Part shown: in pieces, positions 2,862-7,322 of the stretch
Layout of the letters: each line of letters starts with the position of its first letter
How positions within the stretch are numbered: the first letter of the stretch is position 1
From: a virus
Length of the DNA: 42,591 bases
Reading direction: 5' to 3' (one strand)
IMG/VR virus record: IMGVR_UViG_3300021197_000293
Location: 1 to 42,591 of that record
Translations under genes and position numbers: made by a program
The notes under the pieces: model-generated
Seen by the model: the letters and a program-made list of their open reading frames with translations, nothing else
Told to the model about the DNA's origin: nothing
Database searches by the model: none

Positions 2862-3041
2862 TTATTTTTTAGTTGTTGTTAAATGCCAGGCACCACAAAA
2901 GCGGCAAGCATACGGCCGGAGCTTTCGCCCCGACTTTCTGGCCTTGCCTAACTTTTTAGAAAAATGGCGCCGCTGGTTGGCTATATAGTTAGCATGGTCT
3001 ACCGCGTCGGCTTTAGTGGCGTACGGTATCTTCTGACACAT
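2862..3041 (-). CDS. Small basic zinc-finger protein (59 aa)
   Basis: The ATG at 3041 overlaps the TAA of the primase gene by one base (TAATG), so it is probably translated by reinitiation. The product is strongly basic (RRHFSKKLGKARKSGRKLR) and ends with YACRFCGAWHLTTTKK, a CxxC...H type metal-binding tail found in many short phage proteins. It may bind DNA or RNA; the role is unknown. Confidence 0.75.
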   Translation of the reverse strand: MCQKIPYATKADAVDHANYIANQRRHFSKKLGKARKSGRKLRPYACRFCGAWHLTTTKK

Positions 3042-5632
3042 TAAGTCACCTTAAACACTTCGGCCGCGTTACCAGTTGGTACCGTTTGCGCGCCCTGGGC
3101 TTCCTGGTAGATACGGGCCACTTCTGCAGGCGCCGTTATGTTAGCGTTAATATGGCCGTTACGTATGAATAAGCGCGATTTCTTACCGTCGTCCATAGGG
3201 ATAGGATTATTAACACGGCCGCCAGTTAACGCCGGGTGCCAGTCATAGCCGAGGGACTGCAGTAGTTCGCGTCGCTTGTTATGTGGAATTGAGCGGGTCG
3301 CGTGTATCGTTTGGAGTAACCTTTCGACCGCTACCGAAGATATCCAGCCGCCGGCAAAGCCTGGGCGTCCTTCCTCGACTGCTTCTAAAATTTCCTGTTC
3401 GATACCACCCATAGACGCGGTTAACGCTTCGCTGGTGCTGCTAGTTTCTGGTGCTCTATGGCAAGCGCCGGCCGGGTTAAGTTCGTCCGGTATTGCATAG
3501 TTAGCCAGGTAGTTGGCCACAATGGCGTAGCCGTCACCCTTAAGCCAGGTATATAGCTCCGGGAAATAGTTACCGTCCATACCGTCGCGGGCCAGGTCTG
3601 TATCTAACTGCTGGGCCGAATAGAATACGGCGAAGCGTCGGTCGTTACGTGTCTTACGGATAGCGTCCTTATGGTTACTATTTAGGATAAAATTAGCGTA
3701 ATTATCGCCCATTACTTGCGCCTGCTGCATTGCACGTTTAGCCAGGCGGTCGTTAGTAATCATAGGTTTTAATACTTCGATAATTTCCTTTTTATGGTCC
3801 GGGACGTAAACGTCTTCTACGCCGATAAATAATTTATTAAATAACCATTCGTTAAACTTCTCGGCTATCTCGTTCGACGGCGGTAAGTGCGTATAGCGCG
3901 AACCTATGGCAAAAGCCACGCAACGAGTAAACAGCGTTTTTCCGTTACCTTCTGCGCCCTGGATAAGTGGCGCCCATTGGAATTTAACGCCTTTATGCTG
4001 AATACAGGCCGCCATATACGCGAGTAATATTTCCTGGTCTCTCGGCTCCGGTAATATCTTAGCCAGGTGATTAAGGAACGGCGTAGCGTCGCCAGATAAG
4101 CGCGGGGTTTCTATCGGTAGGTATGCGTTAACTAAGACGACGCCGTCCTCCTTTAGTAGCGACCCTGGGGCCTCTAGTGGGCGGAATGCCATAGCCTCGG
4201 CTTTCGGGTAGCGTACGATTTGCGACTCGGTAAACGCCTCCCAGGCCTTACGGGTAACCTTATCGCCGCCGTCGTCTAACTGGAAGCTATAACCGCCGTA
4301 TGTGGCGTTAAACTGCTCCGACTTTAGTAGCGAACCGTTCGGCGTAAATACCCGGTGTAATTCCTGGATATAGACGCACCCCTTAAAATATTCGATTTGC
4401 TGATTAGCGCCTAAGTATTGGTACCCGGTTAATATCTCCGGTCCTTCTACCGTATTACCCAGGGGCGCGGCGGCTGTTTCGATTGGCGTAAGTACCTGGC
4501 GTAATTCTTCGACGCTACGGTCTTTATTATCTAGCCAAAATTTAGCCGTAGGGACCTTACAAAACATTTCGATAAGTTCGACTTCCCCCTGGCATTCCGC
4601 CAACTTAGTAGCGCGTACGTTAGTCGCGTAGTCTCGCTGGGGGTCGCTGGTGGCTCGTAGTCGAACGCCGCCGAATTCCTGGGCGATAGTGTCGTCGACT
4701 TCCTTAACGGAGTATACGACCTCCTGCAGTGACACGGCGCGGGTAATAGTACGGATAAGGTAGTCTTCTCGCTCCCACTTATCGCGGACCAGGCCGGAAC
4801 GTCTCATTAGGTTAAGCATTCGTTCGCAATTATTACCGGTCCAGAACGCTAAATGCTGGGCGAGTGCCGCGTCGGCGCTACTACCGTCGTATGTACGGTT
4901 ACCTTCTGGGTCTGGGTAGGCTTTAGCGAGGACGTCTTCGTCGCATTCCCATAGGTGGCGGAAAGTCGCCCGGTCACCAAAAACAGCACCCCCGCCGCCA
5001 GTCTTAAGCGCGCGGTCGATAAGTTCGTCGTCGTCTTCGGTACCGGTCCATTCTGCCGTAGGCTCGGTAGTCCAGTCCTGGTCCTTAGTCGCTGCCTTTG
5101 GCGGGAAATAGCTATTAATTAACCCTGGTAAGTGCTGCGAGTAGTCCAGCCCGGCGGTACCCTGGGCGTTAATACCGGTAAGCGCTACGAATCGGCCTTC
5201 GGTATAGAGTTCCAGGCCTAACGCTATGTTCTTACAGGAATGGTCCGGCGCTACGCCTTGCCCGAATATGTGGAGTCCTCGGCCAGACTGCGATACTTCT
5301 ACCGCGGCGCCAGGTAAGCGCGTCAGGATATCCATAGCAACGGGCGACCAGGTCGTATTATCCGCGTTTAAACACTTATCTAAATCCACAAAGAAGAACG
5401 GGTCGTTAGGCGTAAATACGAAGCCTACGCCGTAATTCTCGCCGTAAGCCTGGGCGGTAGATATCGCCGTCGTCGAGTCCATCCAGGCGCCCGGGTCGTG
5501 TGCGTCGGCTACTTTGGCGGTACGGTAATCTACGGGTAACTTAACTTGCTTACCTTCTCGTTCCGCTAACGTCCATAAAATAAACTGCTTGTACGCTGCT
5601 AGCGGCTGCAGCGCTTCCGGTAGGTTTTGCAT
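3041..5632 (-). CDS. Primase-polymerase / SF3 helicase fusion (replicative primase-helicase)
   Basis: 863 residues. The N-terminus is an archaeo-eukaryotic primase-type fold: VDLD at residues 82-85 gives the metal-binding acidic pair, and SQSGRGLHIFGQG near 114-126 is the sGxGxH motif. The middle has GAEGNGKT near residue 562 (Walker A) and a downstream FIGVEDVY acidic strand and sensor-like Asn (ILNSNHK), as in D5/DUF5906-type SF3 helicases. It should make primers and unwind DNA at the fork. The plan resembles phage NrS-1-type prim-pols. Start ATG at 5632 with AGGGG eight bases upstream. Confidence 0.88.
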   Translation of the reverse strand: MQNLPEALQPLAAYKQFILWTLAEREGKQVKLPVDYRTAKVADAHDPGAWMDSTTAISTAQAYGENYGVGFVFTPNDPFFFVDLDKCLNADNTTWSPVAMDILTRLPGAAVEVSQSGRGLHIFGQGVAPDHSCKNIALGLELYTEGRFVALTGINAQGTAGLDYSQHLPGLINSYFPPKAATKDQDWTTEPTAEWTGTEDDDELIDRALKTGGGGAVFGDRATFRHLWECDEDVLAKAYPDPEGNRTYDGSSADAALAQHLAFWTGNNCERMLNLMRRSGLVRDKWEREDYLIRTITRAVSLQEVVYSVKEVDDTIAQEFGGVRLRATSDPQRDYATNVRATKLAECQGEVELIEMFCKVPTAKFWLDNKDRSVEELRQVLTPIETAAAPLGNTVEGPEILTGYQYLGANQQIEYFKGCVYIQELHRVFTPNGSLLKSEQFNATYGGYSFQLDDGGDKVTRKAWEAFTESQIVRYPKAEAMAFRPLEAPGSLLKEDGVVLVNAYLPIETPRLSGDATPFLNHLAKILPEPRDQEILLAYMAACIQHKGVKFQWAPLIQGAEGNGKTLFTRCVAFAIGSRYTHLPPSNEIAEKFNEWLFNKLFIGVEDVYVPDHKKEIIEVLKPMITNDRLAKRAMQQAQVMGDNYANFILNSNHKDAIRKTRNDRRFAVFYSAQQLDTDLARDGMDGNYFPELYTWLKGDGYAIVANYLANYAIPDELNPAGACHRAPETSSTSEALTASMGGIEQEILEAVEEGRPGFAGGWISSVAVERLLQTIHATRSIPHNKRRELLQSLGYDWHPALTGGRVNNPIPMDDGKKSRLFIRNGHINANITAPAEVARIYQEAQGAQTVPTGNAAEVFKVT

Positions 5633-5641
5633 AGAACGCCC

Positions 5642-6148
5642 CTAAAAATTTGCTAATAGTGTAGCGGCTTCCGCTTTCAACTCGGCCGGCGCTTTCTTAG
5701 CGTGGTCGTCTCCATTTGCTAAACCCTGGGCGATAATTTCCGCGATACCTTGCTTAATAGCCCGGCGCATTACGGCCGTTTTAAGTTGGTTCATAGTACC
5801 GAAGTAACGAGTAACCAGGCCCATAGATACGCCGGCGGACTCCGCTATCTTATCGCGGGTAATTTTGTTATAGCCTGATACTTTAGCCATAGCTACCGCT
5901 ATGTTAAGGATATGGTCCTTACGTAATTCCGGGTTAGCGCGGGTTTTACTTACTGAGTGCGCTATCTCCTGGATATTTTCGAGTTTCAATTCCTCGACAA
6001 AGTCGGAGAAATTACAGCCCATAATATGCGGGAACGAACCGTCCGGAATGCCGGCACGTTCGCATAACTCGCGGCGGGAAAGGTTAATTAGGCCTTCGCC
6101 TCTAACCATACAGACCGCTACTTCTTTTACCTGTTCGCGTTGTTTCAT
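5642..6148 (-). CDS. Tandem TetR-type HTH DNA-binding protein
   Basis: 168 residues from the ATG at 6148 (AGGAA nine bases upstream). The in-frame start at 6298 would translate straight through the tRNA-like element, so I reject it. The protein has two similar halves: one with LSRRELCERAGIPDGSFPHI and a second with ITRDKIAESAGVSMGLVTRY. Both look like TetR N-terminal helix-turn-helix domains, and no ligand-binding domain follows. A single chain with two HTH units could bind an inverted repeat as a pseudo-dimer. Its own promoter (6309-6337) carries TGACG-N4-CGTCA, suggesting autoregulation; this is inference. Confidence 0.7.
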   Translation of the reverse strand: MKQREQVKEVAVCMVRGEGLINLSRRELCERAGIPDGSFPHIMGCNFSDFVEELKLENIQEIAHSVSKTRANPELRKDHILNIAVAMAKVSGYNKITRDKIAESAGVSMGLVTRYFGTMNQLKTAVMRRAIKQGIAEIIAQGLANGDDHAKKAPAELKAEAATLLANF

Positions 6149-6180
6149 TGCGTTAATTTCCTGTTTGTTTAATAGAGGGT

Positions 6181-6296
6181 GCGGCGCGCCTGGATTCGAA
6201 CCAGGAAGACAAAGGCGGCCATTTATTCCCGCCCTAACGCTTGCTAAGGTGTCAATCCCCTTAGTGTGTTTTGCCAAATTTTCACCTACGCGCCAC
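6181..6296 (-). tRNA. Atypical, long tRNA-like element
   Basis: The minus strand shows a 7-8 bp acceptor stem (GTGGCGCG with CGCGCCGC, one G-U), TA at positions 8-9, a Leu/Ser-type 3-bp D stem (GTG/CAC) whose loop has AA at 14-15, GG, and A21, and a perfect T arm, CCTGG-TTCGAAT-CCAGG. Between them, CTAAGG and CCTTAG form a stem with a nine-base loop GGATTGACA. Then comes an extra-long variable region with a 7-bp stem AGGGCGG/CCGCCTT. Total is about 116 nt, beyond a normal class II tRNA. The anticodon is unclear: UUG if centred, UGA or GAC if shifted. No CCA is encoded. The promoter at 6309-6337 would start transcription a few bases before it. Confidence 0.55.
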
Positions 6297-6308
6297 ATTT
6301 AGAAAATG

Positions 6309-6337
6309 ATACTAACCCGTAGTGACGTCGCCGTCAA
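6309..6337 (-). promoter_or_regulatory. Minus-strand promoter with palindromic operator before the tRNA-like element
   Basis: TTGACG (6337-6332), 17-base spacer, TAGTAT (6314-6309). The -35 lies in a perfect TGACG-GCGA-CGTCA inverted repeat (6323-6336). The expected start site is about 6302, just before the tRNA-like 5' end at 6296. It also overlaps the stop of the gene at 6312-6527. Confidence 0.78.
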
Positions 6338-6527
6338 TAGAGAATATAAAAGCGCTAAAGACGACCCGGTCTTCCCCAGGTCCGTAAATCGCCATTCGCT
6401 TAGAGCGTTTAACGTCCGGTTCGCCCATGGCTGCGACCACATCGTCGAGACTTTCGAAGCCCGCGTCGGTTGACGGCCCGGAGCATTGCTTCGTAGAGTT
6501 TTTAAAAGGTGTAGCGTAAATAGTCAT
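6312..6527 (-). CDS. Small protein (71 aa), unknown
   Basis: Starts two bases after the VRR-NUC gene's stop and ends inside the following promoter. The sequence has a helical middle (FESLDDVVAAMGEPD), a basic KRSKR patch and an IYGPGEDRVVFSAF strand-rich C-terminus. No family is recognised. Tight spacing with the nuclease gene supports a real, co-translated gene. Confidence 0.65.
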   Translation of the reverse strand: MTIYATPFKNSTKQCSGPSTDAGFESLDDVVAAMGEPDVKRSKRMAIYGPGEDRVVFSAFIFSIDGDVTTG

Positions 6528-6528
6528 A

Positions 6529-7008
6529 TTAGAGGGTTCCTACTGAGTTAGCGAAGGCCGCGTCGCCGCCCATGCTCGCTACAAGGTTTAAAAAATTAAG
6601 TTGTGCTTCTTCCCGTTTACTACCTGAGTATCCCCAGTTAGTGGCCTTAACTTCCCGGGCGATAAACTGCCCTATTACCTGGCCTACGTGGTTTTGCTGG
6701 ATAAGTAGCGGCCGTATCCCTATTAAATCGCTAGACTTTATAAGGTCATTCATTTGCTTAGAGTCATTAGCGAGCCCATAGCGAAGGAAACTACCGTCTT
6801 CGGTATACGTGCCGCCTACGTTATTCCGCCAAACTCTACAGCCCTTTTGTGTAGCTTCCAGGCGTATACGTGTCTGGATTGCGCCCTCCGACTCTGCAGC
6901 TAGCCCCGACGGCTGCGGGTCGGTATTAACGAGCCCGAATTCCCGGCGTAAGTCTTCTACCGCTTCGATAGGAATTCCCCATTTAATACCCCATTGCGTT
7001 AGATTCAT
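6529..7008 (-). CDS. VRR-NUC domain nuclease
   Basis: 159 residues. The VRR-NUC (PD-D/ExK superfamily) pattern is visible: SEGAIQTRIRLEA near residues 40-52, VWRNNVGG, SSDLIGI with Asp94, REVKATNW with Glu119 and Lys121 as the E-x-K pair, and QLNFL. Such phage nucleases are found with SF2 helicases, DUF2815 and DUF2800 proteins, and are thought to cut branched or replicating DNA. Its start overlaps the deaminase stop (ATGA). Confidence 0.85.
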   Translation of the reverse strand: MNLTQWGIKWGIPIEAVEDLRREFGLVNTDPQPSGLAAESEGAIQTRIRLEATQKGCRVWRNNVGGTYTEDGSFLRYGLANDSKQMNDLIKSSDLIGIRPLLIQQNHVGQVIGQFIAREVKATNWGYSGSKREEAQLNFLNLVASMGGDAAFANSVGTL

Positions 7009-7322
7009 TCTTCTATTACCTCAATTAATTTTACACCAGATAAACGCGCCGCCGACTTACAGGAATCGCAAGCGTAAGTATGACCGCGTAATAAAATAGT
7101 AGAGCCTTTGGCATTATCACCCGCCGCGTTAATAGCGTTAACTTCCGCATGGGCGCCTTGACCACATATGGATTTACAAAGGTGATACCCTTCTCCACTA
7201 GCATAACCAGCGGTATCCCTCGGGCATTCTTTTTGCGGAGTTTCGCAAGCGTTAGTACCTACAAATTCCCGACCGTTAAGAGCTATTAACGTCGCGGTAA
7301 CTATTTGTTTAGCGCAAGTCAT
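7005..7322 (-). CDS. dCMP/CMP deaminase-family protein
   Basis: 105 residues with the zinc-dependent deaminase motif: HAE at 58-60 and CDSC at 85-88 (usual PCxxC). Extra cysteines at 26, 33, 49 and 53 lie before the HAE, as in dCMP deaminases with a second zinc site. dCMP deaminase makes dUMP, the substrate of ThyX encoded at 17561-18274. It is shorter than T4 dCMP deaminase. It is coupled on both sides: ATGA overlap with the methyltransferase stop before it and the nuclease start after it. Confidence 0.8.
   Translation of the reverse strand: MTCAKQIVTATLIALNGREFVGTNACETPQKECPRDTAGYASGEGYHLCKSICGQGAHAEVNAINAAGDNAKGSTILLRGHTYACDSCKSAARLSGVKLIEVIEE

Follow-up and report, generated by a model that had tools for sequence, protein, structure and literature searches.

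An oversized tRNA-like element between promoter and tetR gene of a tailed phage: a possible tRNA-derived, non-decoding RNA gene

The described RNAs closest to the element reported here are T4 rnaC, the class II tRNAs (tRNA-Leu/Ser) and the phage tRNAs that act against host defence. T4 rnaC (species 1 RNA, NC_000866 70908-71046) is annotated as 'small, stable RNA' and is present in 710 phage records. Its tRNA T arm (CCGGG TTCGAAT CCCGG) is perfect, its acceptor pairs in part, and a long hairpin precedes the T arm. Among five aligned copies of rnaC (e.g., L181 1409-1547, minus strand) A-U gives way to G-C at the third acceptor pair and both strands of the T stem vary, while two copies have lost the T-loop consensus. 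According to PMC11555353, phage tRNAs evade tRNA-cutting defence, i.e., tRNA-Tyr of T5 and tRNA-Lys with T1 and T7. Oversized phage tRNA-like RNAs were not found described in the titles and abstracts of the literature searched.

The window, i.e., the whole stretch of DNA analysed, is a viral record of 42,591 bases. Its genes for tail sheath, tape measure, terminase, portal and major head protein, together with those for primase, helicase and DNA polymerase, lead to the conclusion that it comes from a tailed phage; its nearest relative in the phage collection is Shewanella phage SppYZU01. The features of the locus are the following, in the direction of the minus strand:

6309-6337, minus strand: sigma-70-type promoter, TTGACG-17-TAGTAT (hexamers and spacing recognisable in close relatives)
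6182-6295, minus strand: tRNA-like element (sequence reading, descriptor match, pattern match)
6289-6295, minus strand: 5' strand of the acceptor stem, TGGCGCG, pairing with 6182-6188 (descriptor, fold)
6266-6285, minus strand: D arm, GTG-AAAATTTGGCAAAA-CAC, tRNA-Leu-like (sequence, alignment with tRNA-Leu; stem probability 0.17)
6244-6264, minus strand: anticodon-like hairpin, CTAAGG-GGATTGACA-CCTTAG, 9-nt loop (fold, loop-register check)
6212-6235, minus strand: giant variable arm, AGGGCGG-GAATAAATGG-CCGCCTT (fold)
6189-6205, minus strand: T arm, CCTGG-TTCGAAT-CCAGG (sequence, descriptor, fold)
6182-6188, minus strand: 3' strand of the acceptor stem, CGCGCCG, then CACC at 6181-6178 (sequence, fold)
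5642-6148, minus strand: gene of a TetR-like regulator, downstream of the element (Pfam TetR_N, 1.5e-08)
3041-5632, minus strand: DNA primase gene, downstream of tetR (PHROG 1829, 1.1e-159)

Measured over both acceptor strands (6295 to 6182), the element has 114 nt, slightly less than the 116 nt or so of the earlier note, whose listed features are all present on the minus strand. Its tRNA-like anatomy is intact. The acceptor TGGCGCG:CGCGCCG has 7 of 7 pairs, the outermost being U.G, and is followed by T8 and A9; the D stem has only 3 bp, with A14, GG and A21 present. The anticodon-like stem (6 of 6 pairs) closes the 9-nt loop GGATTGACA, and 8 bases lead from there to the variable hairpin, whose stem has 7 of 7 pairs (one of them G.U) in a variable region of 38 nt. 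After 6 more bases the T stem is fully paired (5/5) around the consensus loop TTCGAAT. Acceptor, U8/A9, D arm, T arm and 7-bp variable stem thus support the tRNA-like shape with giant variable arm that had been proposed; the 9-base anticodon-like loop without U33 is borne out as well, and so is the missing CCA, since CACC follows the acceptor.

The element shares with class II tRNAs an acceptor of 7 bp, U8, a D arm of Leu type (A14, GG and A21), a perfect T arm and a long variable arm. It differs from them by the 9-nt loop without U33, the 38-nt variable region and the absence of CCA, and it is recognised neither by ARAGORN nor by RF00005 nor by R1, a class-II covariance model built from 30 Leu/Ser tRNAs. 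With T4 rnaC it shares the condition of a phage RNA longer than 110 nt, the T arm on an acceptor-like stem and the long hairpin before the T arm. On the contrary rnaC has no D arm, has two U.U mismatches in its acceptor, lies within a tRNA cluster and is widespread, whereas the element of the window is an orphan; blastn detected no sequence homology between the two. The likeness to the anti-defence tRNAs of PMC11555353 is that of a lone tRNA-shaped gene behind a phage promoter, with no other tRNA genes detected; those are ordinary decoding tRNAs, whereas a function of this kind is hypothetical for the element. Such lengths are uncommon: only 10 of 474 descriptor matches, in 120 viral loci fetched by T-arm pattern, reached at least 104 nt.

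The promoter ends at 6309, about 14 bases ahead of the element; the -10 box comes before the element and the ribosome site of the TetR-like gene after it. This position is compatible both with a decoy RNA and with a leader of the HTH gene. The tetR frame is open through the element (6149-6298, minus strand), from an ATG at 6298 and over 50 codons. An N-terminal extension of TetR was rejected: the ATG at 6298 has no ribosome site, 50 open codons are not rare, and the corresponding locus L166 has stops in all three frames. The open frame is thus probably due to chance.

Relatives whose TetR is 82-98% identical to that of the window keep promoter and gene and lack the element. In the relative L003 (TetR 98% identical) the alignment covers window positions 6308-7009 at 93.0% and 5575-6173 at 96.8%, and nothing matches 6174-6307; L004, L006 and L007 show the same empty site. 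The element was found in none of the nine relatives' records (9/9), while the same kind of search recovers it in its own record. Because close relatives keep promoter and tetR and yet lack the element, its gain, or its loss in the relatives, is read from these alignments as recent.

Homologues were not found elsewhere, whether by blastn in phages and plasmids or by a 20-mer search. In the phage collection, which contains many rnaC copies, blastn returned only the T arm of one tRNA-Tyr, in two copies of one genome. The pattern of acceptor plus T arm gave no match in viral contigs and 4 stretches in genomes, all from Thorarchaeota and none a homologue. The pattern of loop plus T arm gave 61 stretches, and the 9 that were flagged look like promoters or like ordinary sequence near normal tRNAs.

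The element recurs in kind, though not in sequence, in two distant relatives. The TetR loci read were 43 (the window, SppYZU01 and 20 loci, then 14, then 7), some being near-duplicates (e.g., L009/L010, L169/L174, L214/L215). Elements of tRNA-like type, of about 114-120 nt and unrelated in sequence, occupy the tetR leader in 3 of these 43 loci, i.e., the window, L166 and L168; the 40 others are without a clear one, and most have a short leader behind a similar promoter. The L166 element (2854-2972) has 118 nt and scores 48.2 bits as a tRNA with a large insert. Its acceptor and T arm are perfect, ACCA follows it and an extra T-arm-like piece lies inside. The L168 element (about 2850-2970) is tRNA-derived and combines a long acceptor-like helix with two T arms, both perfect. 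It was missed by the strict descriptor, for which L166 is the sole match in 274 kb from 35 loci of the group, and was found with one acceptor mismatch by a mismatch-tolerant descriptor, whose additional chance matches in coding sequence were dropped; the fold z of the L168 element is -0.40. L170 may hold a fourth tRNA-like element in its tetR leader: just upstream of position 3001 lies a 66-nt contiguous minihelix of 7+5 bp (GGTGGTG..GTCGG/CCGAC-CACCACC), then CCCA, a CCA-like end. It was noticed post hoc, and such a minihelix arises in 4 of 4000 random 125-mers. In L167 (L202 from 3811) a hydrophobic ORF of 63 codons stands between promoter and tetR in place of an RNA element.

Over 35 whole records of the group, RF00005 gave tRNA matches in three, i.e., L166 in the tetR leader and two near-identical records behind primase. 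The element behind primase (L180 and L179, 1500-1622, minus strand) is tRNA-Leu-like, has 122 nt and has a damaged T stem. The elements of L166/L168 and L180/L179 are like that of the window in being tRNA-like, of about 118-122 nt and from the same phage group, those of L166 and L168 also in lying in the tetR leader; they differ from it in sequence and inner layout. No credible tRNA turned up in eight additional phage records whose TetR genes are more distant. ARAGORN called no tRNA in the TetR-group loci scanned; standard tRNA finders thus miss single odd tRNA-like RNAs of small phages.

When the element is folded freely, pair probabilities are 0.97-1.0 for the acceptor (0.27 for the end pair), 0.63-0.97 for the T stem, 0.63-1.0 for the variable stem and 0.93-0.95 for the anticodon-like hairpin, and only 0.17 for the D stem. 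The fold energy of the minus strand is unremarkable (z -1.69; 11 of 200 shuffles equally stable). The element has RF00005-type features, i.e., a 7-bp acceptor and a 5-bp T arm with a TTCRANY loop. Nevertheless, the RF00005 covariance search did not reach the gathering score of 29 bits: it gave no match up to E 10 in 6100-6400, nor any over the record as a whole. ARAGORN called no tRNA at the element, relaxed settings giving only noise in other registers. The covariance check set by the earlier note came out at chance level: R1 gives 13.8 bits at the element vs. 12.6 for the next match in the window, in a wrong register, so R1 tests little. The parts of a tRNA are present, yet profile models do not take their sum for a tRNA. 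Being a single copy, the element offers no covariation. Homologous loci do not show a broken acceptor or T stem, which would have told against the RNA; they lack the element altogether.

The reading preferred, tentatively and with a probability of roughly 0.4, is that of a gene for a tRNA-derived RNA that does not decode; it would travel as cargo at the start of the tetR-primase transcript and possibly act as a tRNA-shaped decoy or protector. The element would be transcribed early from the tetR promoter and excised from the leader by RNase P and a 3' nuclease. The stable product would work through its tRNA shape, not by bringing an amino acid to a codon; by analogy it would most likely serve as a decoy for, or as a protection against, host nucleases or defence systems acting on tRNA. 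T4 rnaC and the anti-defence tRNAs of PMC11555353 provide precedents. All acceptor, T, anticodon-like and variable pairs are intact without any similar known sequence, which favours this reading; with one copy, intact pairing cannot prove selection. The recent gain or loss, the recurrence of such elements in the tetR leader and the lack of a 7-nt loop with U33 speak for it as well. Against this reading count the failure of RF00005 and R1, the z of -1.69, the single copy and the 40 of 43 loci without a clear element.

A wider proposal, which must be held unlikely, is that the tetR-primase leader is a cargo slot of the phage group, repeatedly loaded with unrelated, oversized, non-decoding tRNA-shaped RNAs (rarely with a small ORF) that would act early as decoys against host tRNA-cutting defences or RNases. 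If the elements are indeed anti-defence decoys behind a regulator promoter, such a slot lets more of them be found, and it offers a test of unexplained phage tRNA-like RNAs such as T4 species 1.

The main rival to the cargo RNA is a captured tRNA gene, of Leu type by its D arm, in the course of decay: its anticodon loop and variable arm would have grown by insertions, CCA would have been lost, and the remainder would now be neutral cargo of the leader. This is a reading of some weight, though a doubtful one. It accounts for the recent presence/absence, the lack of a canonical anticodon arm and of CCA, and the weak D stem. The second T-arm-like pieces in L166 and L168 look as though tRNA fragments had fused, and the element of L180 is clearly a damaged tRNA-Leu. 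However, random decay should break pairs, while in the window every stem is still fully paired, the T-loop consensus is intact and no close tRNA relative is recognisable; moreover the insertions form perfect new stems, e.g., the 7-bp variable arm.

A cis-acting regulatory leader, whose tRNA-like fold would govern the stability, processing or translation of the tetR mRNA, is improbable. The element does lie on the coding strand, in the very interval from promoter to ribosome site where tRNA-like elements recur. This reading is weakened because most TetR loci are without any element: with their short leader and similar promoter, tetR manages without it. Besides, the elements share no sequence and L167 has a small ORF there instead.

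Still less probable is a tRNA that does decode, its anticodon loop having been expanded and its end being completed by CCA addition; by position it would be Ser UGA or Val GAC, or else it would be a frameshift tRNA or an allo-tRNA. Acceptor, T arm, U8, A14, GG and A21 are intact, and within the 9-nt loop both TGA and GAC have a T before them. However, of the 7-nt anticodon loops that can be drawn between D and T arms, four close on at least 4 standard pairs and not one of these has U33, and the covariance scores are at chance level; for an allo-tRNA or a charged tRNA, the missing CCA and the 9-nt loop likewise tell against it. A suppressor reading UGA, considered in the earlier note, was rejected: TGA in the loop is an anticodon UGA, which reads UCA (Ser) and not the stop UGA, and the canonical anticodon arm is absent. 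No isotype stands out in a comparison with 704 distinct tRNAs; the best single matches are Ile and Leu, and the D arm resembles that of tRNA-Leu. The element probably cannot decode anything.

A chance fold of leader sequence, which the moderate energy and the chance-level covariance scores would suit, is very improbable. The descriptor (acceptor, T arm, T8, R9), drawn up with the element already known, matches once in the window and twice in 50 Mb of order-1 random sequence, neither of these two with a D arm; acceptor, T arm and U8 at the spacing of the element are expected about 0.003 times per window, and comparison with close relatives shows the unit to be inserted in its entirety. Finally, although tRNA genes often serve as att sites, the att remnant of an integrated ancestor suggested earlier is very unlikely, since relatives differ by an entire inserted tRNA-like unit, the site is internal to the tetR leader and no integrase was named among the 29 window ORFs scanned with PHROGs.

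Oversized tRNAs of another kind were met in viral contigs. A conserved insert of about 45 nt (an ATCGGTT hairpin ACGGACAGCAAT) sits between the D arm and the anticodon arm of phage tRNAs at L102 1044-1541 (minus strand), L109 8895-9247 (plus strand) and L294-L299. The pattern ATCGGTTN{8,24}ACGGACAGCAAT has 15 matches in 8 viral contigs, 12 of them distinct, and all 15 lie within a tRNA frame of 116-119 nt with fully paired acceptor and T arm. In 12 aligned rows, from which the insert-domain structure was itself drawn, 252 of 252 cells are paired, both partners vary in 12 of 21 pairs and none of 500 shuffles matches the covariation; the row L109 9129-9247 is one letter short of the search pattern, and one distinct match (L295, about 5686-5804) is outside the 12 rows. 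Rfam sees there a tRNA with an insert and nothing more, and two members, one from L102 and the one from L130, had no blastn match in the phage collection. The insert is possibly an undescribed intron or added domain. The RNAs wcaG and abiF occur near these tRNAs in some contigs.

The element of the window was tried as a member and rejected: R2, the model of the insert-domain tRNAs, gives it 12.5 bits vs. 11.2 for the next nearby match, and the core ATCGGTT...ACGGACAGCAAT is absent. Its alignment by MAFFT with oversized phage tRNAs was not meaningful either. R2 also finds more divergent oversized tRNAs, at 35-72 bits:

L130 2006-2120 (minus strand), L299 1319-1680, L295 6296-6409 (minus strand)
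L296 3033-3145, L294 6526-6647 (minus strand), L109 8727-8838

In Aeromonas phage 60AhydR15PP (L143 1202-1285) an unannotated class-II tRNA-like unit, missed by ARAGORN, reaches 39.8 bits with R1. Two other tRNA-like units are oversized, i.e., one of 104 nt with a long variable arm (L072 741-846, minus strand) and one of 136 nt that is Ser-like (L078 3883-4018, plus strand).
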